NCBI GenBank assembly: GCA_017620525.1
Contig: JAGAUY010000072.1
Location: 1-45,295 of the forward strand
DNA length: 45,295 bases
Reading direction: 5' to 3'
DNA from: Oscillospiraceae bacterium
GTDB taxonomy: Bacteria > Bacillota > Clostridia > Oscillospirales > Oscillospiraceae
Numbering within the stretch: position 1 is the first letter of the stretch; every line of letters begins with the position of its first letter. This document shows positions 8,323 through 28,077 of the stretch, piece by piece. Under the pieces are notes generated by a model. That model did not search any database, was not told the DNA's origin, and saw only the letters and a program-made list of their open reading frames with translations. A program made the position numbers and the translations under genes.

Positions 8323-8361
8323 CATCAATATGATATTATGGAAGAAAGGAGGGAACTGCGG

Positions 8362-11300
8362 ATGCAAGAAAACATGATGCCGGGTGCCCAGGGCTATGTC
8401 GCGAAAAACAAACGCCGCCGGGTCTGGCAGAAAATTGTCGGTGCGATGGCGGGCGTGGTCGTATTCTGCACCACATATGCGCTGATCCTGCCGGCAATCA
8501 CAATGGAAAAACCCACTTTCTGCGGTATGGAAGAGCATACCCATGAAGATAAGTGCTACATCGCATCCTCTGACCAGCGTACGCTGACCTGTTCTCTCCA
8601 GAACCTTGGCGTACATACCCACAGCGACAGCTGTAAAGATGCGGATGGCAATCTGATCTGCGGTCAGGTGGATTATGTGGTGCATACCCATGATACCTCC
8701 TGCTATGATGAAACCGGCGCTGTCATCTGCCAGCTGCCTGAGGTTTTGGGTCACACCCACACGGACAGCTGCTACAGCACCCCGCAGCAGCCTGACGGCC
8801 ATACCCATTCTGAGGATTGCTATACCCTGGAGTGGGGGGAACTGACCTGCGAAAAGGAAGAATCGGAAGGTCATGATCATGGCGATGATTGTTATACGGT
8901 TAGCGAGACGCTGGTGTGCCTGACGGAGGAATCGGAAGGCCATACCCACGGCGACGAATGCTACACAACAACCGAGACCCTGACTTGCCAGATGGAAGAG
9001 TCTGAGGAGCATACTCATGGTCCTGAGTGCAGCACTTCCGTGCAGACGCTGATCTGCCAGATCCCGGAATCTGACGGTCATGCCCACGGGCCGGACTGCT
9101 ATGAGAAGGTCCTGACCTGTGAGATTCCCGTGTCGGAAGGCTACCAGCATACGGATGAGTGTTATACCTGGAACAAGGTTCTGTCCTGCGGTCTGGAAGA
9201 GATACCCGTGGAAACCACTGCCGAACCCACTGAGCAGACGACTCCCGCTGCCGAGCCGGAGCTGATCTGCACGGAACCTGTTGTGGCGGCCCATGTTCAT
9301 TCGGACAGCTGCTATACCCCGGCAGGCGAGCCAGTGCTGGAGTGCGAGCTTGAGGAGCATGAGCATAAACTGATCTGCTACAGCGATCCCGAAGCGGATG
9401 TGGAAACGGCCTCTGTATGGCAGGCAACGCTGCCGGAGTTGAATGGCGTCTGGGCGAAGGATGTCCTTGCCGTTGCGCAGAGTCAGCTTGGCTATCAGGA
9501 AAGCACGAAAAATTACACGGTGCTGGAAGACGGGGAGACCATGAAGGGCTATACCCGTTACGGCGACTGGTACGGCATTCCCTATGGCGACTGGTGCGCC
9601 ATGTTTGTATCCTTCTGCCTGGATCATGCCGGGGTAGAGGGGATGACGCTGAATTCTGTCTGCGCCAACTGGATTGTGGAGCTGTCCTCCGAGGAGTACG
9701 GTCTGTACCATTCCGCGGCAGAGTATACGCCCAGGCCCGGCGATGTGATCTTCTTCGACTGGGAGGGCGACGGAAAGTCCGACCATGTGGGTCTGGTGGC
9801 GGAGCTGATTGAAGCGACGGAAACGGAAGGCGCACAGATCAGGACCATTGAGGGCAATTCCGGCGACCGGGTCCAGTATGTGACCTACAGCGCGGACAGC
9901 GCCTGCATTCTGGGTTACGGCGCACTGCCCGCCCAGCTGTCCGAGGAAGACCGGGCGGCGGTTGATCATGTGATTTCCCTGATCGACGAGATGCCCTCTG
10001 CCGACGAGATCGACGCGAAGCTGATCGAGTTTGACGAGGCGGGTGACATTGAGGGTGAGGAAGCCTGGTATGCTGAGATCTCCCAGCAGGTGGCTTTAGC
10101 CTACCATGTTTATTCGAATCTGCCCGATGAGCTGAAGCCTTTTGTGACCAATGCGGACAAACTCCTGGAGCTGGAGTATATCTGGTCCGTGACGACGCTG
10201 GAACTGATTAATTCCATTGATGTTTACCAGGTGAATTCCTATGCTTCATCTTCAGAAACTGGCAGTTTGGCAGCGACAATTGTCCGCGGTGCCAGAGGCA
10301 CTACCGTCAGCGCCACGATCGGTTGGGACTTTAATTGGTGGTATGCTGTTGTTGTTGAACAGAAAGACGGACAGTATGTTGTCACAGAAGTCCATCAATC
10401 CGGTGTAGGCTTGAGTAAAGCAAATGTCTATGCGCCTTATGACGGCTTTATCCTCCTGGTTTGGTCCGGAGACAGCAGCATCAGCGGTACGGGATTCAAT
10501 GTTGAGGTTGGCGACTATGTTTCTACAGGCGGCAGCTACTTCTGGAGAGATTATAGTGCATATACCGGAACGGTATTGGGAACGGTCAAATTCTTTGATG
10601 CCCCGGTTGATCATGCGACTCCCTTCTGGAGCGAACCGACTCAGGTGACGCAGAATATTGCCGACACCGCCGAATTCATCGAACTGAACCTGTATGACTA
10701 TGGCTCCAATATCAATACAAAGTTCAAAAATGAAACTTACACCTATAACGGATACACAGGTGTAACCCTGTGGCCCGGCTTCCAGTGGAACGGCGGTGCC
10801 TACAATAAGAATAGCGCATTCCACCGCCACCAGGTCGACTATATTGACTTTGGCAACTCTTTGATTACGGACCTGCAATATGTCTCTTCTTCAGAGGATG
10901 GTAATGCTTATGGCAAGGCATCCGGTTCGGTGTCTGTTGGTAAAACATATAATTATTCTGATGCATATCCGGGAACAACTGGTATTATCAACAGACTGTG
11001 GCGAAATGGTACAGATTGGGGGTCACTGACGAACCGTCCCATAGGTATGAGTATGAACTCCGGCACTACGGATACCACCTACGATGTGCTGAAACCCATC
11101 CTTACACCTGCAGGATACCCGGTAATCCTGTCCAGTGATTCTGTTACGGGTTTTACAGGCGTTCTGGATTATCTGTTCACTGATAATACCTATGCGAAGA
11201 AGGTGAATGGTTCCACCATCAACGGCTTGTTCCAGATCAATCCCACCTCCGGTGAGTATTATTTCAACAGCCGCTGGAATCATGCCCAGTATGACGCGGG

Positions 11301-14286: not shown

Positions 14287-14350
14287 TCTCCCCGATGCAC
14301 GCAAGCCCGCCCGAAATGGGTAAAATCAAAAGAAGAAAGGATATGAAAAA

Positions 14351-16150
14351 ATGAGGAACATGAAAAAGCTCTTCGCAATGGTCCTGGCGATCGTCATGGT
14401 CATGAGCCTGGCAACGACTGCTTTTGCGTATGACATTACGCTGGAAGGTACAGTAACTGCTCCCACTGATAAGCATAGCTATTCTGTCTATCAGATCTTT
14501 GTTGGTGAACTGGCAGAAGATAGTCAGACTCTGTCCAACATCAAGTATGGTGCTAACTATGGTACTAAGGATGCTGAGGTTCCTGCATCTGAGCTTGAAG
14601 CTATTACCGATGCCGACACTTTTGCAAGAGATATCGTGAGCAGTAAGAAGTTGGTCGGCGATCCTGTTGGAACTCTGGATTCTAGCAATAATTGGACCAT
14701 TACTGTCAATGATCCTGGTTATTATCTGATTGTTGATGACACCAGCAAGGAAATTGCAGATGGCGATGCATACTCTGCTTATATTGTTCAGGTGGTTGAA
14801 GACGTTAAGATGAATCCTAAGTCTGAGGCTCCCACTCTGGACAAGAAGATTACCGCTGATGACAACAAGATTAGTGGTGACATTACCGAAGATGGCAAGT
14901 TTGATAATGTCAGTGTTGGTTCTACTGTTACCTATACCCTGACTGGTACTATTCCTGCCCGCGCAACCGATTACGACTACTACTATTACATCATCAATGA
15001 TACCCTGTCTACCGGTTTAACCTTTAACAATGACGTAAAGGTTACTATTGATGGCAAGAATGCAGTTAAAGGTACAGATTACCAACTGTATGTTAATGAA
15101 GATGGTTATACTTTCCAGGTTGCTCTGCTCGGTGCCAAGGCTCATGCTGGTAAGTCCGTGGTAGTTACCTATACCGCTACTCTGAATGAGAATGCTGTTA
15201 TTGGTGAGATTGATGGCAACCCCAATACTGCAGATCTGGATTACTCCAACAATCCCAATGAGACTTACGATGGCACTCAGGACGAAGATAAGCCCGGCAA
15301 GCCTGATTCTGAAAAGAATGTTCCTCTGGGTGATACTCCTGACTCCACCACCCGCACTTACACTACTGGCATCAAGCTGATCAAGGTCGACGAAAACGGC
15401 AATTCTCTGACTGGTGCAGAGTTTACCATTACTGGTGATAACGTTGTTACTGTTCTGGTTGTTGAAAGCGAAGCTTATGAGGCTGTTGCAGAAGGCGAGA
15501 CCGGTGTATACTGGAAGCTGAAGGACGGTACTTATACTGCGGAAGCTCCTGTTGTTGAAGCATATTACAAGGAAGCTGCTGAAGGTGCAACTGCTGGTTG
15601 GGTGAATGAGGGTACCGATGATGAGCCCAATTGGGTTGAGTACAATGCAGAATCCGAGGATCATGCACAGAAGACCGTGTATATTAAGGTTGAAGCTAAT
15701 AGCGAACTGTATGATAGCATCACTACTAAGTACAAGAAGGTTATTGTGTACAGAACACAGACCGAAGAAGGCGAAGTCAACGGCAAGGCTTACGTTGATA
15801 AGGACGGTTATCTGACCTTTGCAGGTCTGGGTGAAGGTACTTACACCATTAAGGAAACCAAGACCCCTGATGGCTACAACACCATTAAGGATATCACCAT
15901 TGAGATTAAGTGGGAAGCACCTGTCGAAGGCTCTGATGATTGCAGTTGGTCCGCAACTGCATCTACCGCAGGTGATCTGACTCTGAACCCCGAAGGCGTA
16001 TTTGAACTGACTATCGTTAACGAGTCTGGTTCCGTCCTGCCCGAAACCGGCGGCATGGGTACTGTGATCTTCTATGCTCTGGGTGCTGTTCTGGTTCTGG
16101 CAGCTGTCGTTCTGCTGGTCACCAAGAAGCGTATGAGCGTTGCCGAATAA
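14351..16150 (+). CDS. Major (backbone) pilin, LPETG-anchored, isopeptide type
   Basis: A 599-residue shaft pilin. A signal peptide ends near AFA (residue 26). The N-terminal domain closes with KMNPKSE, where Lys157 is the likely pilin-motif lysine used by sortase C to link subunits. Later, SpaA/Cna-B-type domains include an E-box (YTIKETKTPDGY, Glu502), typical of internal Lys-Asn isopeptide bonds. The sorting signal LPETG is at 563-567, with a hydrophobic span and KK tail. Codons end in T much more often than in the neighbours (GCT, GTT, GGT, CCT), as in very highly expressed genes. AAAGGA nine bases upstream sets the start. A strong hairpin follows the stop and may protect this part of the mRNA. 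Confidence 0.9.
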   Translation: MRNMKKLFAMVLAIVMVMSLATTAFAYDITLEGTVTAPTDKHSYSVYQIFVGELAEDSQTLSNIKYGANYGTKDAEVPASELEAITDADTFARDIVSSKKLVGDPVGTLDSSNNWTITVNDPGYYLIVDDTSKEIADGDAYSAYIVQVVEDVKMNPKSEAPTLDKKITADDNKISGDITEDGKFDNVSVGSTVTYTLTGTIPARATDYDYYYYIINDTLSTGLTFNNDVKVTIDGKNAVKGTDYQLYVNEDGYTFQVALLGAKAHAGKSVVVTYTATLNENAVIGEIDGNPNTADLDYSNNPNETYDGTQDEDKPGKPDSEKNVPLGDTPDSTTRTYTTGIKLIKVDENGNSLTGAEFTITGDNVVTVLVVESEAYEAVAEGETGVYWKLKDGTYTAEAPVVEAYYKEAAEGATAGWVNEGTDDEPNWVEYNAESEDHAQKTVYIKVEANSELYDSITTKYKKVIVYRTQTEEGEVNGKAYVDKDGYLTFAGLGEGTYTIKETKTPDGYNTIKDITIEIKWEAPVEGSDDCSWSATASTAGDLTLNPEGVFELTIVNESGSVLPETGGMGTVIFYALGAVLVLAAVVLLVTKKRMSVAE

Positions 16151-16172
16151 TTCATTTCTTTTCTTCCATTTC

Positions 16173-16198
16173 CCGGTGGGGGGTTCGCCCCCCACCGG
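16173..16198 (+). promoter_or_regulatory. Intercistronic hairpin between backbone pilin and sortase
   Basis: CCGGTGGGGGG and CCCCCCACCGG form a perfect 11-bp stem on a TTCG tetraloop, 22 bases after the pilin stop. There is no T-run after it. It is followed at 16200-16211 by the palindrome CGGAATATTCCG. This suits mRNA stabilisation or partial termination that keeps pilin transcript above sortase transcript, more than a full terminator. Confidence 0.75.
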
Positions 16199-16271
16199 AC
16201 GGAATATTCCGCCGCGGCCTTCGCTTGCGTCCCGGAACGCGAATTCATCCCGCAGCCGCAAGGAGAGTCCT

Positions 16272-17087
16272 ATGAAAAAGCATTGGTCTACAATTCTACT
16301 TTTCTTCATACTCATCATAGGACTGTCCCTGCTGCTGTATCCTTCCTTCAGCGACTGGTGGAACTCCATGCACCAGTCCCGGGCCATCGCCACCTATTCA
16401 TCACAGGTGGCCGAGATCGATGACGACCAGTACGAACAGATCTGGAGTGCCGCCTGGGATTACAACCGGTCCCTGGCTGAACGGACCAACAGCTTCGTCC
16501 TCACCGACGAGCAGATCGAACAGTATGATGCCCTGCTGAACATCGGAGGAAGCGGTGTCATGGGATACATCGAGATCCCGTCCATCGGCGTGACTCTGCC
16601 CATCTACCACGGCACCAACGAAGCCGTGCTGCAGGTGGCGGTTGGCCATCTGGAATGGACAAGCCTGCCTGTAGGCGGTGAAGGCAGCCACTGCGTGGTC
16701 TCCGGCCACCGGGGCCTGCCCAGTGCCCGTCTCTTCACCGATCTGGACAAGCTCATCGAGGGCGACATCTTCATTTTTCGGGTTCTCGACGAGGTCCTGA
16801 CTTATGAAGTGGATCAGATCCGCATCGTCGAACCCCAGAACACCGACGATCTGCTGATCGTGGAAGGGAAGGACCTGTGTACGCTGGTCACCTGCACCCC
16901 CTACGGTATCAACAGCCACCGGCTGCTGGTCCGGGGCCACAGGATCGATAACATTGAAGAAGCCAAAGCGGTCCGCGTCACTGCGGATGCCATACAGATC
17001 GACCCGGTCATCATCGCTCCGGTGATCGCTGCGCCGATGCTGCTGATATTACTGATTCTCCTGCTGATTCCGAAGCGCAGGAGATAG
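16272..17087 (+). CDS. Class C (pilus-polymerising) sortase
   Basis: A 271-residue membrane sortase. It has an N-terminal span (about 8-23) and a C-terminal span with a basic tail (RR near the end), the usual class C layout. The catalytic triad is His146 (SGHRG), Cys208 (TLVTCTP) and Arg217 (HRLLVRG). The core opens with IPSIGVTLPIYHG. It cuts LPXTG pilins and joins them through the pilin-motif lysine, building the shaft. A canonical DPF/W lid motif is not obvious; DWW near residues 28-30 could take that place. AGGAG six bases upstream sets the start; the longer open frame from 16140 would run through the intercistronic hairpin. Confidence 0.92.
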   Translation: MKKHWSTILLFFILIIGLSLLLYPSFSDWWNSMHQSRAIATYSSQVAEIDDDQYEQIWSAAWDYNRSLAERTNSFVLTDEQIEQYDALLNIGGSGVMGYIEIPSIGVTLPIYHGTNEAVLQVAVGHLEWTSLPVGGEGSHCVVSGHRGLPSARLFTDLDKLIEGDIFIFRVLDEVLTYEVDQIRIVEPQNTDDLLIVEGKDLCTLVTCTPYGINSHRLLVRGHRIDNIEEAKAVRVTADAIQIDPVIIAPVIAAPMLLILLILLLIPKRRR

Positions 17088-17102
17088 ATAGGAGGGAACG
17101 AA

Positions 17103-17765
17103 ATGAGAAAACGGATATTCACGCTGCTGCTGGCGGCGATGCTGGTTCTGAGCGCCGGTATCACGGTTTACGCTCATGACGTTCCCGACCTGAGCCTTGA
17201 CGGCACCATTACCGTCACCATGCGTATTGGCAGTACGGTGGTCCCCGGCGGCTCCATGACCATCTACCGGGTGGGCGATATCCACGAGGAGGACGGTAAC
17301 TACAGTTTTGTCCTGTCTGAAGCTTTTTCCGGCAGCGCTGTCGCGCTGGATGCCCCCCAGTCTGCCGCCGCAGCAAAGAATCTGGCGGATTATGCTGTGA
17401 AACAGTCTGTCACCGGTGTGACCCAGCGGATCCTGCGAAACGGCAAAGTTACCTTTGCTGTAGAGCCGGGATTGTATCTGCTGGTACAGAAGGACGCATC
17501 TTCCGGCTATGCGCCTGCCAGTCCCTTCCTGATATCCGTCCCCAATATGAAAGACGGCTCTTATGTCTATGATGTTGACGCCACTCCCAAGGTGGAGATC
17601 CAGAAGGTGACGGAAACCACCACACCGCCTCCCACCAAGCCCACATCGCCCAATCTCCCTCAGACCGGTTCGGACAGCTGGAAGGCATTTCCGATGATGC
17701 TGCTGGGTGCGGCGCTGATCGCAGGCGGCTGGATGCTGCGGAAGAAGGAATCCTATGAAAGCTAA
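17103..17765 (+). CDS. Minor pilin with LPQTG sorting signal
   Basis: A 220-residue exported protein with a signal peptide (cut near VYA, about residue 24) and one or two small beta domains (GSMTIYRVGD and GLYLLVQKD are SpaA/pilin-like). A Thr/Pro-rich stalk leads to LPQTG (185-189), a hydrophobic span and RKK. Its small size and its place between two sortase genes suit a basal anchor subunit that joins the shaft to the wall. AGGAGG seven bases upstream sets the start. The last 11 bases overlap the next sortase gene. Confidence 0.82.
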   Translation: MRKRIFTLLLAAMLVLSAGITVYAHDVPDLSLDGTITVTMRIGSTVVPGGSMTIYRVGDIHEEDGNYSFVLSEAFSGSAVALDAPQSAAAAKNLADYAVKQSVTGVTQRILRNGKVTFAVEPGLYLLVQKDASSGYAPASPFLISVPNMKDGSYVYDVDATPKVEIQKVTETTTPPPTKPTSPNLPQTGSDSWKAFPMMLLGAALIAGGWMLRKKESYES

Positions 17766-18384
17766 GTTTGGAGTATTATGTATGGTATTTGGGGCAGTGC
17801 TTCTGCTGGGAGCGCTGTCCCTTTTGGCCTATAATCAGCAGGAGGCGGCCCAGGCTGACGAGGCAGTGTCGGATGTGATGCCCCAGGTGGTGGAGCAGAT
17901 CCTTCAACGCCGGGAGCAGACCGATGAAACCGCGCTGCCGGAGCCGGAAGTCCCTCTGGAGCTGCTGGAACCGGAAGACCTGGAAATGACAGAAGTTGAG
18001 ATCGATGGCTATGGCTACATCGGTTATCTATCCTTCCCGGCTTTGGAACTGGAGCTTCCGGTCATGTCGGATTGGGACTATACCCGCCTGCGGATCGCCC
18101 CCTGCCGCTATGCCGGAACCCTGAAGGGCGAGGACCTTGTGCTCATGGCCCATAACTACACCCGCCACTTCGGCAGGCTCTCAGAGCTTACGGAAGGGGA
18201 CAGTGTTGTGTTTGTGGATATGGACGGCGAAACCACGGTCTATGAAGTGGTCGCGATGGATATTCTGGCGCCTACGGCCGTGGAGGAGATGACCTCCGGC
18301 GCGTTTGATCTGACCCTGTTTACCTGTACCTACGGCGGCCGCAGCCGCGTGACGGTCTATTGCGACCGTGTGAAAGAATCATAA
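17755..18384 (+). CDS. Second sortase of the pilus locus
   Basis: A 209-residue sortase with one N-terminal membrane span (about 7-25) and a long acidic linker. The catalytic residues are His133 (AHNYTRHFG), Cys191 (LFTCTYGG) and Arg198 (RSRVTV). It has no C-terminal span, so it is not class C. The TCTYGG environment and short length resemble class B/D-like sortases of Clostridia, but I cannot assign the class firmly. It starts inside the minor pilin gene, which suggests it handles that LPQTG subunit and attaches the finished pilus to peptidoglycan. A strong hairpin follows the gene. Confidence 0.82.
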   Translation: MKAKFGVLCMVFGAVLLLGALSLLAYNQQEAAQADEAVSDVMPQVVEQILQRREQTDETALPEPEVPLELLEPEDLEMTEVEIDGYGYIGYLSFPALELELPVMSDWDYTRLRIAPCRYAGTLKGEDLVLMAHNYTRHFGRLSELTEGDSVVFVDMDGETTVYEVVAMDILAPTAVEEMTSGAFDLTLFTCTYGGRSRVTVYCDRVKES

Positions 18385-18417: not shown

Positions 18418-18456
18418 TCTCACATACGGAAAATGGAAGTTTATTTCCAGATTATG

Positions 18457-18481
18457 TTGCATTTTCCGCTTCTTTATCGTC
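18457..18481 (+). promoter_or_regulatory. Possible ECF-type promoter of the sigma factor operon
   Basis: TTGCA (18457-18461) and CGTC (18478-18481) are 16 bases apart, the spacing seen in many ECF promoters, and no good housekeeping promoter is visible here. It would fit autoregulation by the sigma factor encoded next. This is a weak pattern match only. Confidence 0.25.
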
Positions 18482-18517
18482 TAACATAACATAAGGATAG
18501 AAAGAAGAGATGATACA

Positions 18518-19090
18518 ATGCGTTACCGCAAAAAGCAGGACCCGATATCCTCGGAAGATAACGTATTTTTCCATGAATTTTACGAAAATCATAAGAATTT
18601 TCTGTTTTATATAGCCCGCAGATACGCAAGCACCCAGACAGACTGTGAGGACATTGTGCAGGATTCCATACTGCGGCTAATGGCGAACATCCCCACATTG
18701 AAGCAGCTCGACCGCTCCAAAGCTGCCAAATATCTGGCGCTGACGGTCCGGACGGCCTATCTGGACATAGAAAAGCGAAAGCACGGCGAGGATGCGGTGT
18801 ATCTGGATGATGCGTCCATTGAGGCGCTTTTGAAAGCGGAGTGCGTAAACGATGACGGGATTTCAGGCATTTCTGCCCGGATGGAGGTGGCGCGGCTGCG
18901 TCAGTCTCTTTCCGCCCGGGACTGGCTGGTTCTGGAGGGAAAATATATCCTGGGCCTTTCCCAGGAGGAGATTGGGGCGCAGATCGGTGTCTCGCCCAAC
19001 AGTGTGCGGATGATTTTAAGCCGCGCCAGAGACAATGCCCGCAAGATTCTGTCGGATGAAGAACAGATCGGAGGTGGCAACAATGCGTGA
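18518..19090 (+). CDS. ECF-type RNA polymerase sigma factor
   Basis: A 190-residue sigma-70 family protein. Region 2 covers about 15-85 (FHEFYENHKNFLFYIARRY and DCEDIVQDSILRLM), and region 4 covers about 130-182 with helix-turn-helix text GLSQEEIGAQIGVSPNSVRMILSRAR. No regions 1 or 3 are present, as usual for ECF sigma factors. Its ribosome binding site is weak (AGAAGAGATGA). It overlaps the next gene by eight bases, and that gene's product looks like its membrane anti-sigma factor. Its targets are unknown; the adjacent surface protein genes are the first candidates. Confidence 0.9.
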   Translation: MRYRKKQDPISSEDNVFFHEFYENHKNFLFYIARRYASTQTDCEDIVQDSILRLMANIPTLKQLDRSKAAKYLALTVRTAYLDIEKRKHGEDAVYLDDASIEALLKAECVNDDGISGISARMEVARLRQSLSARDWLVLEGKYILGLSQEEIGAQIGVSPNSVRMILSRARDNARKILSDEEQIGGGNNA

Positions 19091-21347
19091 TAATCACATG
19101 GATGACGCGATGCTGACACAGCTGATGGACGAATATGCTCTGTCCGATGGCGAGCGGCTCATGCTGGAATTTGAAAAATCCGGCGTTGTAATCCCCGAGG
19201 AGCTGGATGCCGGCTGCCAGGATCTGATTGGACAGACGCTGAAGCCTGCCGCGAAGAAGCCGATCCTCCTTCTGCCCATCCGGTGGCTGCGCTGTGCCAC
19301 TGCCGCGGCAGCGGTGCTGGTGATTGTCCTTTGTGGAACTGCCACAGCCGAAGCATTTGGAGTTGATGTATGGAAAATTGTTGCAAAATGGACAAAGGAG
19401 GCATTCCATTTTGTGGTTCAGGAGATACCGGATGTCAGCGAATTAAGATTCGATGATGAGTGGGCACAGGAGACGGAAGTCACTGAAGCAACTCTTTACC
19501 ATGAACCGATGGTTGTATCCACGGAGGAGACCGCAGAGCCAACGGAGATTCCCGAAGAAACTGTCGGAGAGATCACCGGTGGCAAATGCGGTGATAATGT
19601 GATTTGGTACTTTGACGGAAAAGATACACTTACCATTTCCGGAACCGGAGCAATGTATGATTATGAGGAAGGCCAGTCCTGTCCCTGGAACCAGAGCTAT
19701 GTAAAAAAGATCAAGAAAATCGTCGTGGAAGAAGGCATCACCAGGATCGGCAGTCGTGCTTTCACGCAGACATGGAACGTCGTTGGTGTGACGCTGCCGA
19801 AAACAGTAACTTCCATTGGCATTGATGCATTTACTCATAACACTTCTTCCGGGGAGGTCCATATCACGGATCTGAAAGCATGGTGCATGATCCGGTTTGA
19901 AAGTGAACGTTCAAATCCGCTGCGCGGTATGGATGATACACTGTATCTGAACGGAGAAGCGATTTACGATCTGGTTATCCCCGATGGAGTTACATGCATC
20001 AATCCGTATAGTTTTTACCTTGCACCCATGACCAGTGTTACCATTCCTGCCAGTGTGAAGAGTATTGGCCAATATGCATTTGCGGAATCCTATCATATCA
20101 AAAGCGTAAAGATTGAGGGCAGAGTCGAGACGATAGAAAAGAACGCATTTTCCGGATGTTCCAGTTTGGCAGAAATAACACTTCCTGATGGCTTGATCTC
20201 CATCGGAAAATGGGCTTTTTATCGTGCCGGATTGACCAGCATCAGGATCCCGGAGACTGTGACAGAGATTGGGACCTGTGCGTTTTACCGCTGTTATGAG
20301 CTGCAGGAAGTAGTTCTTCCTGCGGGGATTACGTCCATTGAGCCGGAGACCTTCTATGAATGCAAGGCACTGACCAAAATCAATCTTCCTGAGGGAATTA
20401 CCAGAATTGGGTATAAGGCATTCTCTGGCTGCATCAGCCTGGCGGAATTGAGCATTCCTCGGTCAGTGTGCAGAATTGAGTATGAGGCTTTTCGTAAATG
20501 CAGAAGTCTTAAGTATATTGCAGTTCCTGAAGGTGTAACAAGTATAGAACAAGGTGTATTTTCCAGCTGTTCCGATCTGACCAGTATTCAGCTTCCGTAC
20601 GGAATTACCCAAATTGGGGAGGATGCGTTTGCGTGGTGTGGCAGCTTGTCCGGCATTGCGCTTCCTGCTTCGGTAAACACCATTGGAGCCAGGGCGTTCT
20701 ATCAATGTGCCAGTCTGATCAAGCTGGATATTCCCGACGGTGTATCCAGAATTGAAGCCAGCTTGGTTGCGTTTTGCAGAAAACTGGTAGCAATTACAAT
20801 TCCGGCTAGCGTTACCTATATTGATGGATGGGCAGATGACGGATGTGACAGTCTGAAACATATCCTTTACAAGGGAACCCGGGCCCAAATGTGGGAAATT
20901 GATATTCGCAGCAACTCGTTTGTCAGTAGACTCTGGCATTATAGGGCTACAGGCAATGAAGTTACGATAACCGCAGATGGTCAGGTACATTGTTCAGTTT
21001 GTGATCAGAGTACGGAATGTACAGAGCACACCTGGGACAATGGCGTCCTGACCACGGAACCGACAGCGGAACAGGACGGGACCATGACCTTCACCTGCAC
21101 CGTATGCGGCGATACAATGCAGCAGACGATACCCTGGGAGGAACCGCCCACGGAGCCGGAAGAAGGAACGACCGACGAAACGACGGGGGATTCTGTTGCA
21201 CCGGAAGAGACCGTGCCGCCGACGGAACTCCCAACGGAGCTACCTACAGAACCGGTGACAGAACCCCCAACGGAACCGGAGTCTGGCGGCTTGACAGAAG
21301 AAAAAACAGAACCTATAATGGAACCAACAGAAAATATTGAAAACTGA
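19083..21347 (+). CDS. Membrane protein in anti-sigma position with extracellular LRR_5 region
   Basis: A 754-residue protein with a cytosolic N-terminus (1-66), one membrane span (about 68-88) and AEAFGVDVWKIVAKWTKEAFHF just outside, a phrase shared with Clostridia anti-sigma proteins of the DUF4367/DUF4179 kind. In place of the usual small outer domain it carries a module GKCGDNVIW...TLTISGTG...PW (about 168-215) and more than ten BspA-type LRR_5 repeats (IPxxVxxIGxxAFxxCxxLxxI) to about 620. A Cys-pair segment (CSVC, CTVCG) and a Thr/Pro/Glu tail end it. GGAGGTGG sets the start, overlapping the sigma gene. Inference: it holds the sigma factor until the LRR region senses something outside. 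The anti-sigma function is not proven by a recognised domain. Confidence 0.8.
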   Translation: MRDNHMDDAMLTQLMDEYALSDGERLMLEFEKSGVVIPEELDAGCQDLIGQTLKPAAKKPILLLPIRWLRCATAAAAVLVIVLCGTATAEAFGVDVWKIVAKWTKEAFHFVVQEIPDVSELRFDDEWAQETEVTEATLYHEPMVVSTEETAEPTEIPEETVGEITGGKCGDNVIWYFDGKDTLTISGTGAMYDYEEGQSCPWNQSYVKKIKKIVVEEGITRIGSRAFTQTWNVVGVTLPKTVTSIGIDAFTHNTSSGEVHITDLKAWCMIRFESERSNPLRGMDDTLYLNGEAIYDLVIPDGVTCINPYSFYLAPMTSVTIPASVKSIGQYAFAESYHIKSVKIEGRVETIEKNAFSGCSSLAEITLPDGLISIGKWAFYRAGLTSIRIPETVTEIGTCAFYRCYELQEVVLPAGITSIEPETFYECKALTKINLPEGITRIGYKAFSGCISLAELSIPRSVCRIEYEAFRKCRSLKYIAVPEGVTSIEQGVFSSCSDLTSIQLPYGITQIGEDAFAWCGSLSGIALPASVNTIGARAFYQCASLIKLDIPDGVSRIEASLVAFCRKLVAITIPASVTYIDGWADDGCDSLKHILYKGTRAQMWEIDIRSNSFVSRLWHYRATGNEVTITADGQVHCSVCDQSTECTEHTWDNGVLTTEPTAEQDGTMTFTCTVCGDTMQQTIPWEEPPTEPEEGTTDETTGDSVAPEETVPPTELPTELPTEPVTEPPTEPESGGLTEEKTEPIMEPTENIEN

Positions 21348-21360
21348 AGGAGGAAGAAAA

Positions 21361-23577
21361 ATGAAAAGAAGAATCCTGTCAGCCCTTTTGGTGCTGTGCA
21401 TGGTCCTTGCCTGCCTGCCCGCCACCGCATTTGCGGCGGAAACCGAAGGTACCTGCGGCGATAACCTGACATGGACCTACGACGAAACCACTGCTACACT
21501 GACCATCTCCGGCGAGGGCGCAATGAACAATTATGTGGTGAATCCAGAATATGTCGCAACGATGGTGTATGTTCCCTGGGATGATTATCGGGACAGCGTT
21601 CGCTACGTTGTGATCGAGGACGGAGTGACCAGTATTGGTAATGAAGCGTTTTTTGGTCATTCCGCTCTCGTTGGTGTTTCAATTTCAGACACCGTTGAGA
21701 GCATCGGTCAGAATGCATTCAGAGGATGTGCGGATCTGGAAAGTATAAACCTTCCGCGGAATCTCACAGAGATCAGTGATTATATGTTCTATGAATGCAG
21801 CAGTATTGTGAATATCGAAATTCCGAGCAGTGTTTCCGTTATTGGCAACTTTGCGTTTTATAAGTGCAGCAGTTTGGAAAGAATCGTGCTTCCTGGTGGT
21901 GTTACTAAAGTTGGAGCTGCCGCGTTCAATGACTGTACCAGCTTAAAGGAGATCGTCTTTGAAGGCGATGTACCTAGGTTCGGCTATAGTTCTACGACCG
22001 AAATTTTCTATGGTGTTACGGCATCTGTCTATTATCCGGCTGGAAACACTACCTGGAATTCTGATGTGCTGAGATACCATGGCGGAGACCTTACGGTGAT
22101 TCCTATCGCTGCTGACGCTGCTGAATTTGGAACGTGGGGGGAAAATATTGAGTGGACATTTGATGCAGCTACCGGTACCCTGTCTTTCACCGGTGAGGGT
22201 ACCATGGAAGCGGCATCCTACAACGAGTATCCCTGGTATGGCCACTATCAAAATGTCAAAAAGGTCATCATCGGCGACGGCATTACCAATGTCGCAGACT
22301 ATGCGTTCCAAGGCTACGAAAATCTGAACGAAGCAATCATCGGCAATTCTGTTACAGAAATTGGATCCTCCGCATTTTACTGGTGTACCAATCTGTATTC
22401 TGTTTCTATTCCTGACAGTGTGAAGGTTTTTTGGCATCAATGCTTCTGTAATACCGCAATTTCTGAAATTTATATTCCCGATGGAGTTACGACCATTCAC
22501 AATGGTGCTTTTGCGTATACTTCACTGACAAGCGTCACGATTCCTGACAGCGTGGTGGAGTTTGGTAGTGCATTTTATGGCTGTACGGAACTTGTTACCG
22601 TTAAAATGGGCAACGGAATTACCGATTTGATGGGATTTGGCACGTTTGAAGGATGTAGCAGCCTGAAAAATGTAACCCTGTCCGAAAATCTGATAAGTTT
22701 CCCCATGCACACTTTTGCAGATTGCACCAGCCTTGAAACAGTGGTACTGCCTGGAAGCCTGGAGTATATCGATATCAGTGCTTTTGACAACAGTGGTCTG
22801 CGCTACATTGTCATTCCCGCAAGCGTTACAGATGTTTCCTATGCTTTCTATGGGGTATGCACCCTGCGGCAGATTGTTTTCACTGGCGATTATGTGGATG
22901 GCCTCTTTGCCAGCAATTCCTTTGATAATGTCACCGCCAAGGCCTACTATCCTGCAGACAACGCAACCTGGACCGAGGACGTTCTGCTGGACTACGGCGG
23001 AGACATCATCTGGATCCCCTACACCGAGCTTCCCAATCCTCCCATCCCGAACCCCTTCGGTGATGTGATCTGGAATACTTACTACTATGATCCTGTCCTG
23101 TGGGCAGTGGAGAACGGCATCACTACCGGTCTGACGCCTACCACCTTCGGCGTGGACGAGACTTGTACCCGCGCTCAGGTGGTCACCTTCCTGTGGCGGG
23201 CCGCCGGCAGTCCCGCGCCCACTTCTGCCGTCAATCCCTTCGATGATGTGGAGCAGAACCAGTTCTATTCCGAGGCTGTCCTCTGGGCCGTAGAGCAGGG
23301 CATCACCACCGGCCTGAACGAGACTACCTTCGGTGTCAACGACCCCTGCACCCGCGAGCAGGTTGTCACGTTCCTGTGCCGCTATGCAGGCGGCTCCGCC
23401 CCTGAGGGCGCCGTCAATCCCTTCGATGATGTGGAGCAGAACCAGTTCTATACGGACGCGGTCCTGTGGGCGGTGGAAAAAGGCATCACCACCGGCTTGA
23501 ATGCTACCACCTTCGGCATCGGCAGTCCCTGCAGCCGCGCCATGGTCGTGACCTTCCTGTACCGCGCGCAGAAGTAA
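21361..23577 (+). CDS. Secreted LRR_5 protein with three C-terminal SLH domains
   Basis: A 738-residue surface protein. The signal peptide ends at AFA (residue 25). Two copies of the opening module follow (GTCGDNLTW...TLTISGEG and GTWGENIEW...TLSFTGEG), each leading to BspA-like LRR_5 repeats that cover most of residues 60-555. Three SLH domains (about 563-738, each with AVLWAVExGITTGL and CTRxQVVTFL) should bind secondary wall polymers. AAGGAGG seven bases before 21361 sets the start; it lies 13 bases after the previous stop, so this gene shares the sigma factor transcript. BspA-type proteins bind host matrix or other cells in several species, so adhesion is likely. Confidence 0.88.
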   Translation: MKRRILSALLVLCMVLACLPATAFAAETEGTCGDNLTWTYDETTATLTISGEGAMNNYVVNPEYVATMVYVPWDDYRDSVRYVVIEDGVTSIGNEAFFGHSALVGVSISDTVESIGQNAFRGCADLESINLPRNLTEISDYMFYECSSIVNIEIPSSVSVIGNFAFYKCSSLERIVLPGGVTKVGAAAFNDCTSLKEIVFEGDVPRFGYSSTTEIFYGVTASVYYPAGNTTWNSDVLRYHGGDLTVIPIAADAAEFGTWGENIEWTFDAATGTLSFTGEGTMEAASYNEYPWYGHYQNVKKVIIGDGITNVADYAFQGYENLNEAIIGNSVTEIGSSAFYWCTNLYSVSIPDSVKVFWHQCFCNTAISEIYIPDGVTTIHNGAFAYTSLTSVTIPDSVVEFGSAFYGCTELVTVKMGNGITDLMGFGTFEGCSSLKNVTLSENLISFPMHTFADCTSLETVVLPGSLEYIDISAFDNSGLRYIVIPASVTDVSYAFYGVCTLRQIVFTGDYVDGLFASNSFDNVTAKAYYPADNATWTEDVLLDYGGDIIWIPYTELPNPPIPNPFGDVIWNTYYYDPVLWAVENGITTGLTPTTFGVDETCTRAQVVTFLWRAAGSPAPTSAVNPFDDVEQNQFYSEAVLWAVEQGITTGLNETTFGVNDPCTREQVVTFLCRYAGGSAPEGAVNPFDDVEQNQFYTDAVLWAVEKGITTGLNATTFGIGSPCSRAMVVTFLYRAQK

Positions 23578-23626: not shown

Positions 23627-24226
23627 TTATTTACCGATCATGGGATACTTCTGCTGGAGCCGGCTGGTCAGAAAAGTCAGGGTCTCCTGATCACCGGTCA
23701 GATTGAGCAGCCGCATGGCCACGGGGATCAGGATCTGGCCCAGTTTTTCCGCAGTAAGTTCCGATTGCTCCAGATTCACCATGGACAGATACAGTTCCAC
23801 ATAGGCCCTGGCATAGATCTTTGCCTCAATGTCCCGGGTGGGGCTGCCAGATCCTTCCAGATACTCCCGTTCCAGTTCCGCCGCCACCGTACGGCGAAAA
23901 TCCACTTTCTCTGTGTGGATCTGCAGCAATGCCTTTGTAAATTCCCGGTCGAGACTGAAGGATTTGTTCAGTGTATCACGGGAAGGGGAGTCGGAAAAGC
24001 TGATGCTTTTTCGTACAGTGTCTCGTGCGCAGATGAACTGCTCCATCATTTTTTCGGCGATTTCAAATTTATCCCGGTAATGGGCATAGAAGGTCGCCCG
24101 GGTGACCGGCGTTTCTTCCAGAATATCCTGGACGGTGATCTTCTCGAATGGCTTTCGTTTCAGGAGGGAGATGAGGGCCTGCACAATGGCCTTGTCGGTG
24201 CGCTTAAACTGCGGATTTTCAGACAT
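23627..24226 (-). CDS. TetR/AcrR-family transcriptional regulator
   Basis: A 199-residue protein. The N-terminal helix-turn-helix is TetR-type (about 10-58), with ITVQDILEETPVTRATFYAHYRDK as the recognition region; the remainder is all-helical, as expected of a ligand-binding and dimer domain. It is transcribed away from the GH2/transporter pair across a 374-base gap that holds both promoters and candidate operators. The simplest reading is a repressor of the glycosidase operon and of itself, released by a sugar or glycoside, though TetR C-terminal domains do not reveal the ligand by sequence. Confidence 0.88.
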   Translation of the reverse strand: MSENPQFKRTDKAIVQALISLLKRKPFEKITVQDILEETPVTRATFYAHYRDKFEIAEKMMEQFICARDTVRKSISFSDSPSRDTLNKSFSLDREFTKALLQIHTEKVDFRRTVAAELEREYLEGSGSPTRDIEAKIYARAYVELYLSMVNLEQSELTAEKLGQILIPVAMRLLNLTGDQETLTFLTSRLQQKYPMIGK

Positions 24227-24300
24227 GGGGATCCCTGCTCTTTCTGGTAATGCTTGCTGAATGGACAGATGATGGGATACGGACAGCTTGAGAATAAAAT

Positions 24301-24345
24301 TGTTTAATATATAAAATTATTATACACTTTGTTTAATTATAAAAT
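24301..24345. repeat. Direct repeat in the tetR/GH2 intergenic region
   Basis: TGTTTAATATATAAAAT (24301-24317) recurs as TGTTTAATTATAAAAT (24330-24345), 29 bases apart and overlapping the likely tetR promoter. The 374-base intergenic stretch also has the palindrome ATTGTACAAT at 24384-24393 and a GC-rich hairpin near 24411-24437. Either the repeat or the palindrome could be a regulator site. Confidence 0.5.
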
Positions 24346-24348
24346 CAA
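24319..24348 (-). promoter_or_regulatory. Promoter of the tetR-type gene
   Basis: On the minus strand, TTGATT (24348-24343) and TATAAT (24324-24319) are 18 bases apart. It overlaps the direct repeats, which suits autorepression. The transcript would have a leader of roughly 85 bases. Confidence 0.65.
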
Positions 24349-24489
24349 GTATAAATATTGTCTATTTTACGGCTTTCAGAAATATTGTACAATTAGATAA
24401 TACAATTAGGTTTTCCCGGGCGCAATGTCCGGGGAAACGGAGACTGGCTGCCAGAAACCACGCGACAGAAAAAATGCAGCAATTCGACC

Positions 24490-24519
24490 TTGTCTATTAC
24501 GGCGGCTTGATGCTATAAT
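24490..24519 (+). promoter_or_regulatory. Promoter of the GH2/transporter operon
   Basis: TATAAT at 24514-24519 is preceded by TGC (extended -10), with TTGTCT 18 bases upstream at 24490-24495. Transcription would start near 24526, about 75 bases before the GH2 start. Confidence 0.72.
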
Positions 24520-24600
24520 AATCTTGATATTCTATTCGAATGGTACGAAACCGTCTGATTTTTGCCGGCGGTTCTATCGAATTATGCTAGGAGGCTGCTT

Positions 24601-26520
24601 ATGAGAAAAGAGCACCTGCTCAACAAAAACTGGACGTTTATCTACCATGATGGCACTGCAAGTGCTGTGGATATTCCCCATACCTGGAATAACATCGACG
24701 GTCAGGACGGCGGCAATGACTACTGGCGTGGTACCTGCACTTATGAAAAAAGCTTCTCCGCACCTAAATTCGGTGCGGACGAACGTGTTTATCTGGACTT
24801 TGCGGGTGTCAACGCTTCTGCAAAGGTGATTCTCAACGGAACGGTCGTCATGACCCACGACGGCGGCTATTCCACCTTCCGTGCCGATGTGACGGAGCTT
24901 CTGAAGGCCGAGAACAAGATGTCCGTGGAAGTGGATAACTCTGTCAACGGCAAGGTCTATCCCCAGAAGGCTGACTTTACCTTCTACGGCGGCATCTACC
25001 GCGATGTGAAGCTGATCGTTGTCAATCAGCATCACTTTGATATGGATTATTACGCAGGTCCCGGCATTGCCGTGTACGCGGATGTGAAGGGCAGTGATGC
25101 CCATGTCCGGGTCCGTACCTGGCATCATGTTCCGGAAGGAACGGTAGCCATCACCGTGAAGGACGCTGACGGCAATTGTGTCGCTGCCGGTGAGGGAACC
25201 GATACGGAACTCACCATCTCCAATGTCCATCTGTGGGATGGCGTTGAGGATCCTTATCTGTATACCTGTGAAGCAGTTCTGCGTGTTGACGGCAGAGAGG
25301 TGGATATGATTTCCACCCATTTCGGCGCCCGTTATTTCCGTGTGGATCCCCAGAAGGGGTTCTTCCTCAACGGCCGCAGCTATCCACTGCGGGGTGTCTG
25401 CCGCCATCAGGACTGGAAGGGCATCGGCAATGCCATCGGAAGGGAGAACCATGATACGGATATGGCTCTGATCCGGGAAATCGGCGCCAATACTATCCGG
25501 TTGGCTCACTACCAGCATGATCAGTATTTCTACGATCTGTGCGACAAATACGGTATGGTGGTCTGGGCGGAGATTCCCTACATCTCCGAGCATATGCCCG
25601 GCGGCCGTCAGAATACCATCGATCAGATGAAGGAACTCATCATCCAGAATTACAATCATCCCTCCATTGTTTGCTGGGGTGTATCCAATGAGATCACCAT
25701 CTCCACGAAGGATAATAAGGATATGCTGGATAACCACCATGTGCTCAATGATCTGTGCCATGAGCTGGATCCGACCCGTTTTACGACGCTGGCCTGCTAT
25801 GCCATGTGCGGCCCCTTCAACAAGGTGGCTCATATCACCGATGTGGTCAGCTGGAATCTGTATCTGGGCTGGTATGTGCCCGGTATGCAGCTCAATGACC
25901 TCTGGGTGGATTTCTTCCATGCCAGGTATCCCAACCGCTGTCTGGGTTATTCCGAGTATGGCTGCGAGTGTATGCCCAATCTTCATTCCTCCCATCCGAA
26001 GCGGGGCGACCAGAGTGAGGAATACCAGTGCCTGTACAATGAGTATATGCTGAAGTTCTTCGAAAAGCGCCCCTTTATGTGGGCCACCCATCTGTGGAAT
26101 ATGTTCGACTTTGCCGCTGATGCAAGAAATCAGGGCGGTGAACCGGGCATGAACCACAAGGGCCTCGTAACCTTCGACCGCAAGACAAAGAAGGACAGCT
26201 TCTATGTATACAAGGCATACTGGACAAAGGATCCCTTCGTTCACATCTGCGGCAGACGCTATGTGGACCGGCCTGAAAAGGAAACCACAGTCAAGGTCTA
26301 TTCCAATCTGCCGGAAGTAACGCTCTATGCCAACGGAAAAAAGATTGCATCTGAGAAAGCGGACAAGGTCTTTACCTTCACTGTTCCCGTTTCCGGAGAA
26401 GTGAAGCTGGAGGCTGTGGCAGGGGAGTGCCGTGATCAGATTTCCATCCGATATGCGGATAAGCCGAATCCCGCTTACAAGCTGCGCAAGGGCGATGGCA
26501 ACGGCGGTAACTGGACCTAA
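24601..26520 (+). CDS. Glycoside hydrolase family 2 protein (beta-galactosidase-like)
   Basis: A 639-residue cytosolic enzyme without a signal peptide. The N-terminal jelly-roll (about 1-170) has the GH2 phrase YWRGTCTYEKSF. An Ig-like domain follows, then a TIM barrel (about 265-560) with GVCRHQDWKG. The likely acid/base is Glu364 (GVSNEI) and the nucleophile Glu452 (GYSEYGCE). Residues 518-520 read N-H-K, matching the NxK pattern linked to uronide recognition in beta-glucuronidases, but the acid/base context lacks the NEP of classic glucuronidases. The substrate (beta-galactoside or beta-glucuronide) is therefore open. AGGAGG six bases before 24601 sets the start. A GPH transporter follows after 15 bases, and the pair probably imports and cleaves a glycoside. 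Confidence 0.88.
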   Translation: MRKEHLLNKNWTFIYHDGTASAVDIPHTWNNIDGQDGGNDYWRGTCTYEKSFSAPKFGADERVYLDFAGVNASAKVILNGTVVMTHDGGYSTFRADVTELLKAENKMSVEVDNSVNGKVYPQKADFTFYGGIYRDVKLIVVNQHHFDMDYYAGPGIAVYADVKGSDAHVRVRTWHHVPEGTVAITVKDADGNCVAAGEGTDTELTISNVHLWDGVEDPYLYTCEAVLRVDGREVDMISTHFGARYFRVDPQKGFFLNGRSYPLRGVCRHQDWKGIGNAIGRENHDTDMALIREIGANTIRLAHYQHDQYFYDLCDKYGMVVWAEIPYISEHMPGGRQNTIDQMKELIIQNYNHPSIVCWGVSNEITISTKDNKDMLDNHHVLNDLCHELDPTRFTTLACYAMCGPFNKVAHITDVVSWNLYLGWYVPGMQLNDLWVDFFHARYPNRCLGYSEYGCECMPNLHSSHPKRGDQSEEYQCLYNEYMLKFFEKRPFMWATHLWNMFDFAADARNQGGEPGMNHKGLVTFDRKTKKDSFYVYKAYWTKDPFVHICGRRYVDRPEKETTVKVYSNLPEVTLYANGKKIASEKADKVFTFTVPVSGEVKLEAVAGECRDQISIRYADKPNPAYKLRKGDGNGGNWT

Positions 26521-26535
26521 AGGAGAGATATATCG

Positions 26536-28077
26536 ATGAGCAACGAAAACAACGGCATGAATCGTGCCAAGTTCTATCAGCTGGCGCTGTTCCCCATGAA
26601 CAACGGCGCCACCAATGTCTATTTTGTTCTGATCCTCAGCTATATTGCCACCTTTGGTGAGAATATTCTGGACCTGGTGGGCTTTGCGTCCATCATGGTT
26701 ACGCTGATGCGTCTGTTTGACGCTGTTACCGACCCCATTATCGGCGCTTTGATGGACAAGACCAGCACCAAGTTCGGTAAATTCCGTCCCTTCATGGTTA
26801 TCGGCAATGCGATCATGGCGGTGTCTGTCATTGTCCTGTATGTCTTTACGCCTGCCATTCCCGCTGCCATGAAGTGGGCACGGTATGTGGCCTTTACTGT
26901 GCTGTATGCAGTGTGGGTCATTGGCTATACCTTCCAGACTTCTGTTACCCGTGCAGCCCAGGCAGTCCTGACCAACGACCCCAAGCAGCGTCCTTTGTTT
27001 ACCATCTTTAATACCATCGGCTCTCTTGCCGGCATGGGTGTTATGCAGTTTGTCGGCCCCATCCTGGCAGGCGATAAGTTCTTCGGTGACTACAATGCCA
27101 CCTGGTTTGCTGTGATGACCCCCATTGGTATCATTGTTTCCATCGCGCTGACCATCCTGGCCATCATTGGCATCTGGGAGAAGGACAACGAGAATTATTT
27201 CGGTCTGGGCGGCAAGCAGGAGACCGTCAAAATCTCTGAGTATATCACCATCATCAAAAACAACAAGCCTCTGCAGCGGCTGATGGTCGCCGGTGGCGGC
27301 TGCAAGCTGGCACTGGCAATTGCCACCAATGTTACGGTCCTGTGTATGCTCTATGGCTGCATGATGGGCAACTACGATGGTCTGTACCTGCCTATGATGG
27401 TGCTGGGTTATGTATTCTCTGCTCCCTTCTTTGCGCTGACGGTCCGCACGTCCCAGAAGAAGGGTCAGAAGGCTTCTCTGATGACCTATGTGGCGGTGGC
27501 ATTCGTCTGCTATATCGGTGTGCTGGCGCTGCTGCTTCTGTGGAAGCAGGGAGATCCTGCGTGGAATCTGAACTTTATGACCGACGGCAAGCTGTCCATC
27601 AATCTGTATACCATCCTCTTCCTACTGTTCTTCGGTATTGGTTACGGTGCATATTATTCCACCGCTGATATGCCCATCCCCATGGTTGCAGACTGTGCCG
27701 ACTACGAGACCTACCGCTCCGGCAAGTTCATCCCGGGCATTATGGGCACGCTGTTCAGCCTGGTTGACAAACTGGTGTCTTCCCTGGCCTCTACGGTTGT
27801 TTTCCTTGCTGTATCCTTTATTGGCTATCAGGGCTTGCCCACCAAGGCAACACCCTATATGGATGGCATGAACTGGGTGGTTATCGCACTGTTCTGTCTG
27901 GTTCCCATGGTTGCGTGGGCTTTGACCCTGATCTCCATGCGCGGCTACGAACTGGATGGCCAGCGCATCAAGGTGGTCCAGGCTGTCAATGCTGCCCGCA
28001 AGGCTGCCATTGCCAATGGTATGTCCAATGAGGAAGCTATGGCTACCATCACCGATGAGACGGTCGATATCAAATAA
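26536..28077 (+). CDS. GPH-family (glycoside-pentoside-hexuronide) cation symporter
   Basis: A 513-residue MFS protein with about 12 membrane spans. Residues about 55-85 contain RLFDAVTDPIIGALMDKT, the GPH signature, followed by KFGKFRPFM. The second half has MVADCADYETYRSGKF, also typical of the family (MelB, LacS, UidB, XynB relatives). It carries no C-terminal IIA domain. It lies 15 bases after the GH2 gene, with AGGAGA as the ribosome binding site, so the two form one operon under the TetR-type regulator. The imported sugar should be the GH2 substrate. Confidence 0.9.
   Translation: MSNENNGMNRAKFYQLALFPMNNGATNVYFVLILSYIATFGENILDLVGFASIMVTLMRLFDAVTDPIIGALMDKTSTKFGKFRPFMVIGNAIMAVSVIVLYVFTPAIPAAMKWARYVAFTVLYAVWVIGYTFQTSVTRAAQAVLTNDPKQRPLFTIFNTIGSLAGMGVMQFVGPILAGDKFFGDYNATWFAVMTPIGIIVSIALTILAIIGIWEKDNENYFGLGGKQETVKISEYITIIKNNKPLQRLMVAGGGCKLALAIATNVTVLCMLYGCMMGNYDGLYLPMMVLGYVFSAPFFALTVRTSQKKGQKASLMTYVAVAFVCYIGVLALLLLWKQGDPAWNLNFMTDGKLSINLYTILFLLFFGIGYGAYYSTADMPIPMVADCADYETYRSGKFIPGIMGTLFSLVDKLVSSLASTVVFLAVSFIGYQGLPTKATPYMDGMNWVVIALFCLVPMVAWALTLISMRGYELDGQRIKVVQAVNAARKAAIANGMSNEEAMATITDETVDIK

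Follow-up and report, generated by a model that had tools for sequence, protein, structure and literature searches.

What might an anti-sigma factor sense when the part of it that lies outside the cell is built of leucine-rich repeats (LRRs)? The question is raised by three plus-strand genes that stand in a row in an Oscillospiraceae bacterium (assembly GCA_017620525.1), known from a 2.09-Mb draft metagenome-assembled genome (MAG) of 103 contigs that is 68.5% complete and 3.6% contaminated. The stretch analyzed, here called the window, is contig JAGAUY010000072.1 (C93) at its full length of 45,295 nucleotides. The first gene encodes a sigma factor of the extracytoplasmic function (ECF) type, the second a membrane protein that we refer to as the sensor, and the third a protein with S-layer homology (SLH) stretches:

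18518..19090, plus strand: ECF-type sigma factor, 190 amino acids (Sigma70_r2, Sigma70_r4_2, TIGR02937)
19083..21347, plus strand: membrane anti-sigma candidate with an LRR ectodomain, 754 amino acids
21361..23577, plus strand: secreted LRR_5 protein with three SLH stretches, 738 amino acids (PF13306, PF00395)

We read the first two genes, with a probability of roughly 0.6, as an autoregulated pair of ECF sigma factor and single-span anti-sigma factor, belonging to a family centred on the Oscillospiraceae, in which a BspA-type LRR domain, like those of the organism's surface proteins, has taken the place of the small DUF4367 ectodomain. Membership of this chassis, the exchange of the ectodomain and the conserved promoter are the parts carried by sequence comparison.

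An earlier note on this DNA had described an ECF-type sigma gene overlapping the gene of a single-span protein, with a secreted LRR_5/SLH protein encoded next, and this layout holds. Given the ATG at 19083, which has GGAGG upstream, the first two genes overlap by 8 nt; the sensor has one strong span; and the ATG of the LRR-SLH gene at 21361 lies 13 nt past the sensor gene stop, its product matching LRR_5 at 270 bits and SLH at 74.6 bits in Pfam. The sigma factor matches Sigma70_r2 (35.5 bits), Sigma70_r4_2 (32.4 bits) and TIGR02937 (67.8 bits, cut-off 42.9), and the domain scan gave no match to a sigma-3 domain; sigma-2 and sigma-4 domains in about 190 residues are the make-up of an ECF factor. 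It is a rare protein, found at E≤1e-15 in 9 of 397 related genomes, and its relatives in the GTDB contig collection occupy 12 loci, 11 titled Oscillospiraceae or Oscillibacter and one Clostridiales. The closest, at locus L041, is 46% identical and is its sister in the tree (support 99/96). A partner with the same cytosolic motif stands at the 3' end of 16 of the 17 related sigma frames, the seventeenth being the second sigma of L047; L044 and L048 each have a second sigma frame, oppositely placed, that also lacks such a partner. At L077 the sigma frame was found divergent from the partner, and at L067 the partner precedes it. The sigma factor and the membrane protein thus look like an ECF sigma/membrane anti-sigma pair.

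The sensor consists, in order, of a 70-residue N-terminus, a membrane span, a stalk rich in proline, threonine and glutamate (P/T/E), a cap module, LRR_5 repeats and a P/T/E tail:

19083..19292, plus strand: cytosolic anti-sigma domain, residues 1-70 (alignment A3; leave-window-out profile, 30.5 bits, E 1.9e-8)
19293..19349, plus strand: single transmembrane span, residues 71-89 (19-residue mean hydropathy 2.09)
19347..19355, plus strand: A-E-A signal-peptidase-like motif, residues 89-91 (putative site 1, from sequence)
19365..19418, plus strand: candidate amphipathic juxtamembrane helix, the 'phrase', residues 95-112 (hydrophobic moment)
19422..19580, plus strand: P/T/E-rich stalk, residues 114-166 (sequence)
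19581..19649, plus strand: cap module G-x-CG-x-N-x-x-W..TLTISG-x-G, residues 167-189
19650..20942, plus strand: LRR_5 solenoid, about residues 190-620 (PF13306, 4 stretches; LRR_5 places between 19704 and 20855)
21153..21344, plus strand: P/T/E-rich C-terminal tail, residues 691-754 (sequence)

As judged from profiles and alignments, the first 113 residues of the sensor belong to an anti-sigma family found mainly in the Oscillospiraceae. When the window sequence was left out of a profile of the cytosolic domain, the profile still picked out the window protein among 934 open reading frames, at the score listed above. With the 113 residues as query, matches at E≤0.01 were obtained in 43 of 397 related genomes, most of them only in the span and phrase; an overlapping upstream sigma gene strongly like that of the window was present at four of the 29 non-window loci from this search (L019, L023, L026 and L028). 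When alignment A3 served as query, the genomes matched were 63 of the 400 sampled from the family (E≤0.001), 9 of the 136 from the genus (E≤0.01) and 13 of the 394 from the order (E≤1e-5); these samples overlap, and three weak matches among the nine at genus level look false by eye. The juxtamembrane phrase, which the earlier note had recognized as that of Clostridia anti-sigma proteins, is indeed common to the sensor and to DUF4367 proteins of the same genus (AFGVDVWKIVAKWTKEAFHF). All five of the phrase-bearing proteins scanned, three from the genus of the window, one from its family, and L003, have DUF4367 ectodomains (L003, L011, L014, L024 and L049, the last with a cytosolic match too). 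The Pfam search found no match to DUF4179, DUF4367 or RsgI_N in the sensor at E≤1; a check of its start for the first two had been suggested in the earlier note. The best relative of the cytosolic domain in PDB, a capsid protein at E 0.028, was set aside as not convincing.

Outside the membrane the sensor departs from its family. DUF4367 is matched at E≤0.1 (Pfam) in 15 of 18 proteins of alignment A2, and the window protein matches LRR families only. A profile of the family ectodomain gives 58.6 bits with the L041 partner, 17.5 bits with that of L054 and -0.9 with the sensor, the best of 500 shuffles scoring 5.5. A small DUF4367-like ectodomain is kept in 17 of 17 aligned relatives, and LRRs occur in the window protein alone. 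There LRR_5 (PF13306) scores 318.3 bits (E 3.5e-96, over cut-off), and LRR proteins come closest among solved structures (4fs7 at E 6.3e-49). The suggestion that more than ten LRR_5 repeats replace a small outer domain is therefore well founded (12 units by one pattern), and in sequence terms the DUF4367 ectodomain has really been replaced. Because the partner of the sister sigma at L041 has a small ectodomain, the LRR domain was most likely acquired later, on the window branch.

No LRRs were seen by eye in the partner frames of 18 stretches fetched after the family-genome search, a set in which 11 had been picked because their frames were long or odd, nor in those of three further stretches. 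The full-length sensor is unusable as a query, its LRR matches swamping the result (136 of 149 genomes). Several candidates for a second LRR anti-sigma factor were rejected: a 1038-residue frame of G025 is an ordinary secreted LRR-SLH protein, the weak matches in G191 and G028 resemble other proteins by eye, and the long frames of G344, G541 and G498, which also by eye resemble other anti-sigma families, have no LRRs. Downstream of position 1603 at L042, after the operon of G031, there is a 508-residue anti-sigma-like protein with a similar juxtamembrane stretch.

A triplet [AVST]-x-[ASG] closes the span, by eye, in 21 of 22 proteins (L054 is doubtful). The helix candidate has a hydrophobic moment of 0.51, with p 0.026 when the same 30 residues are shuffled; among phrase-bearing relatives p is 0.054 for L003, 0.29 for L011 and 0.040-0.096 for three lectin-like sensors described below.

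Two promoters were identified by their sequence around the operon:

18455..18482, plus strand: candidate ECF autopromoter TGTTGC-N17-CGTCT, 35 nt before the sigma start
21291..21319, plus strand: full-consensus sigma-A promoter TTGACA-N17-TATAAT (12/12) for the LRR-SLH gene, inside the 3' end of the sensor gene

The pattern TGTT[GA]C-N15-18-[CGA]GT[CT]T occurs upstream of 10 of the 26 family sigma genes, a further 10 having the -35 hexamer alone and 6 neither, with 4 of the 26 regions shortened by contig ends; 200 sets of dinucleotide shuffles gave a mean of 0.095 and a maximum of 2, and the reverse strand 2. The site at 18455-18482 is the only one in the window, where 0.25 would be expected by chance, and no sigma-A-like promoter is listed on the plus strand of the gap before the sigma gene. 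Since the family pattern stands before its gene, the sigma factor is likely to be autoregulated. Genome-wide there are 14 sites (28 for a reversed control), and three stand within 40 nt before a frame of at least 60 amino acids: that of the window and one each in contigs C102 and C59. The C102 site, TGTTGC-N17-CGTTA (L118; C102:6749-6776, minus strand), is 21 nt before a 409-residue frame that by eye resembles a transporter of the MATE type, and may be a second target or chance. The C59 site is 17 nt before a 124-residue frame, the first 90 residues of which have no Pfam match, and lies inside another frame. A wider regulon was dropped on the count of sites against the control, and neither C102 nor C59 is claimed as a target.

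The sigma-A promoter of the LRR-SLH gene matches the consensus perfectly, as did none in 100 shuffles. It is probably real, because the genome holds 37 perfect TTGACA-N17-TATAAT sites and none of the reversed pattern; the organism appears to use very consensus-like sigma-A promoters. In a same-genus relative (L056) an 11/12 sigma-A match precedes the third gene. That gene encodes, at 13 loci, a secreted protein of about 135 residues (for example L044 7287-7715, L048 7325-7738 and L071 1359-1760), for which no convincing Pfam family was found in the three copies tested. In 2 of 14 regions examined (L048 and L076) the third gene has an ECF-type promoter in front of it as well, and the secreted protein looks like the usual output of these operons. 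In the window the third place is held by the LRR-SLH gene, and L041 has no same-strand third gene.

A parallel case is found in another genus, where a C-type-lectin-like domain follows the span in the sensors of three loci (L061-L063; Lectin_C, PF00059, at 19.7, 18.8 and 19.5 bits, cut-off 22.6). DUF4367 is kept in two of the three (Pfam), and DUF4179 reaches only 13.8 bits in L062, under its cut-off of 30.1. Their sigma genes score 86-95 bits against that of the window and form their own group in the tree (98/95). The first 278 residues of the G426 sensor, searched against 17 genomes of its genus, match five: the three sensor genomes, G601 and G684, the match in G684 being a short broken frame. 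G426 is the only one of the three sensor genomes with a second copy, at 69% identity to part of a 2257-residue secreted protein (L112 5180-12118, minus strand) that combines BspA LRRs, cohesin, 5'-nucleotidase, SLH and C-type-lectin-like domains. The match in G601, at 37%, is within an SLH protein, where the domain exceeds the Lectin_C cut-off with 23.9 bits, and an LRR-SLH gene convergently adjoins the L063 sensor gene. Because the lectin-like domain of the G426 sensor recurs in its own LRR-SLH protein, it appears that this anti-sigma chassis can carry sensor domains shared with surface proteins of the cell.

How close, then, is the sensor to its own LRR-SLH neighbor? The earlier note had seen a module, G-x-CG-x-N-x-x-W...TLTISG-x-G, in the sensor (residue 167), in the LRR-SLH protein (residue 30, with a looser copy at 257) and in the product of the gene at 30576 (residue 31), and had judged that sensor and product look like paralogues, the sensor perhaps binding the LRR-SLH adhesin or its ligand, or competing with either, which would make sigma output track the level of adhesin on the surface. 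The module is present in all three, but does not support a private link because it is a generic LRR cap, found also in L079, L080 and L081 of the same genome, in degenerate form in L083, and in the G025 LRR-SLH protein. Nor do the two look like close paralogues, since the neighbor ranks seventh of the 14 own-genome frames matched by the sensor LRRs (123 bits, 25% identity); L079 (the best, at 222 bits), L080, L078, L081 and L082 score higher, and L083 about equally (125 bits). A recent local duplication was rejected on the same ranking. What favors a feedback gauge is that the two genes adjoin, are closely spaced and encode the same fold, that the third gene of relatives looks like an output, with its own ECF-type promoter at L048 and L076, and that G426 offers a lectin twin. 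The idea is nevertheless weakened by the generic cap, the rank of the neighbor, the lack of enrichment of the ECF pattern and the housekeeping promoter of the LRR-SLH gene, and we regard it as unlikely, if the most plausible of the alternatives.

Our preferred reading, a sigma/anti-sigma pair with an exchanged ectodomain, has its own difficulties. The LRR-bearing sensor is seen in one incomplete MAG, with no second LRR-bearing member in the family, genus or order genome searches, and DUF4179 goes undetected in it. For the sensor helix the p-value is modest, and it is 0.088 or more in all 16 family members that lack the phrase. The promoter pattern was defined after the sequences had been viewed and its rows include near relatives; the six regions without even a -35 include two of the three lectin sensors; and in the genome the pattern is not enriched, two sites besides that of the window also standing closely before frames. 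Finally, with a perfect sigma-A promoter of its own, the LRR-SLH gene may be only weakly linked to the sigma factor. All of these weigh against the reading. One could instead suppose that the anti-sigma stem has decayed and that the LRR part serves mainly as an adhesin held by it in the membrane, signaling being lost or constitutive. In favor of this, LRR_5 is abundant in this genome (45 matches) and DUF4367 has gone, but the sigma gene, the overlap, the cytosolic domain, the juxtamembrane motif and the promoter are all retained, and we consider it improbable. Least probable of all, and by some way, is that the assembly joined the start of an anti-sigma gene to an unrelated LRR gene: the genome is a single draft in 103 contigs and no second case was found, but the 754-codon frame is unbroken, the stalk is sensible, gene spacing is ordinary on both sides, and the LRR part does not duplicate any other LRR gene with which it was compared in the genome (best match 33% identity).

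If the paired reading is correct, a mechanism can be proposed in which we infer the inhibition of the sigma factor, the ligand, the route of cleavage and the effect on the LRR-SLH gene. The cytosolic domain (residues 1-70) would hold the sigma factor. The solenoid on its flexible stalk would bind a large ligand outside, a glycoprotein or polymer of host or neighbor and possibly the target of one of the cell's LRR-SLH adhesins; binding would pull the amphipathic helix off the membrane and expose the A-E-A site to signal peptidase, whereupon RseP, a homologue of which is encoded in the genome (204.5 bits), would cut the span and free the sigma factor. The latter would then drive its own operon from the promoter at 18455-18482, and transcription would read through into the LRR-SLH gene, itself also steadily expressed from the housekeeping promoter. 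This route is proposed because the sensor has an A-E-A motif followed by an amphipathic stretch and because of the precedent of RsiV, in which an amphipathic helix shields the signal-peptidase site until ligand binds (PMC6066255, PMC8844934).

Comparison with known systems places the operon more closely. The Oscillospiraceae ECF sigma/DUF4367 anti-sigma operons (such as L041-L051 and L071-L076) are alike in the sequence of the sigma factor, in having the two genes overlap or abut, in the cytosolic domain and single span and, in many, in the promoter pattern; they differ in having DUF4367 where the window has LRR_5, and a protein of about 135 residues (13 loci) where it has the LRR-SLH protein. 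SigV/RsiV of Bacillus subtilis (PMC6066255) shares the single-span anti-sigma factor, and its signal-peptidase motif and amphipathic helix beyond the span have candidate counterparts in the sensor; its DUF4179 is undetected here, and its lysozyme-binding domain stands where the sensor has LRRs. With SigI/RsgI of Clostridium thermocellum the resemblance (PMC4711584) is in overlapping sigma and anti-sigma genes, promoters before the sigma genes and, putatively for the window, a ligand-binding ectodomain of the type found in secreted products; RsgI outer modules resemble secreted enzymes, the GH10 module of RsgI6 being 57% identical to Xyn10D. There, RsgI_N is present (unmatched here), the outer modules are carbohydrate-binding or glycosidase modules rather than LRRs, and target promoters were proven by reporter, whereas ours are read from sequence. 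LRR_5 is present in both the sensor and its putatively regulated LRR-SLH neighbor, but is generic in the genome. Since the domains differ, the sensor is RsgI-like in logic and not a member of RsgI. BspA-type LRR_5 surface proteins share the solenoid with its N-terminal cap; most of those inspected in the same genome begin with a signal peptide, and SLH repeats close many of them, whereas the sensor starts with a cytosolic domain and has no SLH. In search listings of open-licence full texts we found no description of an ECF system with an LRR or lectin anti-sigma ectodomain, in agreement with the earlier note, and three passages of PMC7406223 contain nothing on ectodomains.

Three other features were observed. 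Upstream of the sigma operon, 8338-18384 holds a pilus-like cluster of a 1982-residue CHAP/DUF7601 protein, a pilin backbone protein, two sortases and a small LPXTG-type protein. At 23627-28077 a minus-strand TetR-type regulator adjoins a GH2-family glycosidase and an MFS_2 sugar transporter, possibly a small sugar-use unit. A further membrane protein with an outer LRR domain, having a zinc-ribbon-like start, one apparent span and LRRs, is encoded in contig C96 of the same genome (L086 2579-3259, minus strand).

For most BspA-type LRR and lectin-like surface proteins of gut Clostridia, no target is known to us. The locus points to a family of three-gene ECF operons with a predicted promoter, a family of which the texts searched yielded no description, and it suggests that gut bacteria of this kind build new sensors by borrowing parts of surface proteins. 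A bolder proposal, which we put forward tentatively and think somewhat doubtful, is that Oscillospiraceae gut bacteria graft the ligand-binding domains of their own adhesins (LRRs here, a C-type lectin in a sister clade) onto a common ECF anti-sigma chassis, each sensor reading the target of its twin adhesin as a non-cellulosomal counterpart of RsgI. If true, the RsgI principle that the sensor domain is the product domain would be extended from polysaccharide degradation to adhesion; and if sensors do carry adhesin domains, a reporter on the sensor's promoter would be a read-out of the adhesin's ligand.

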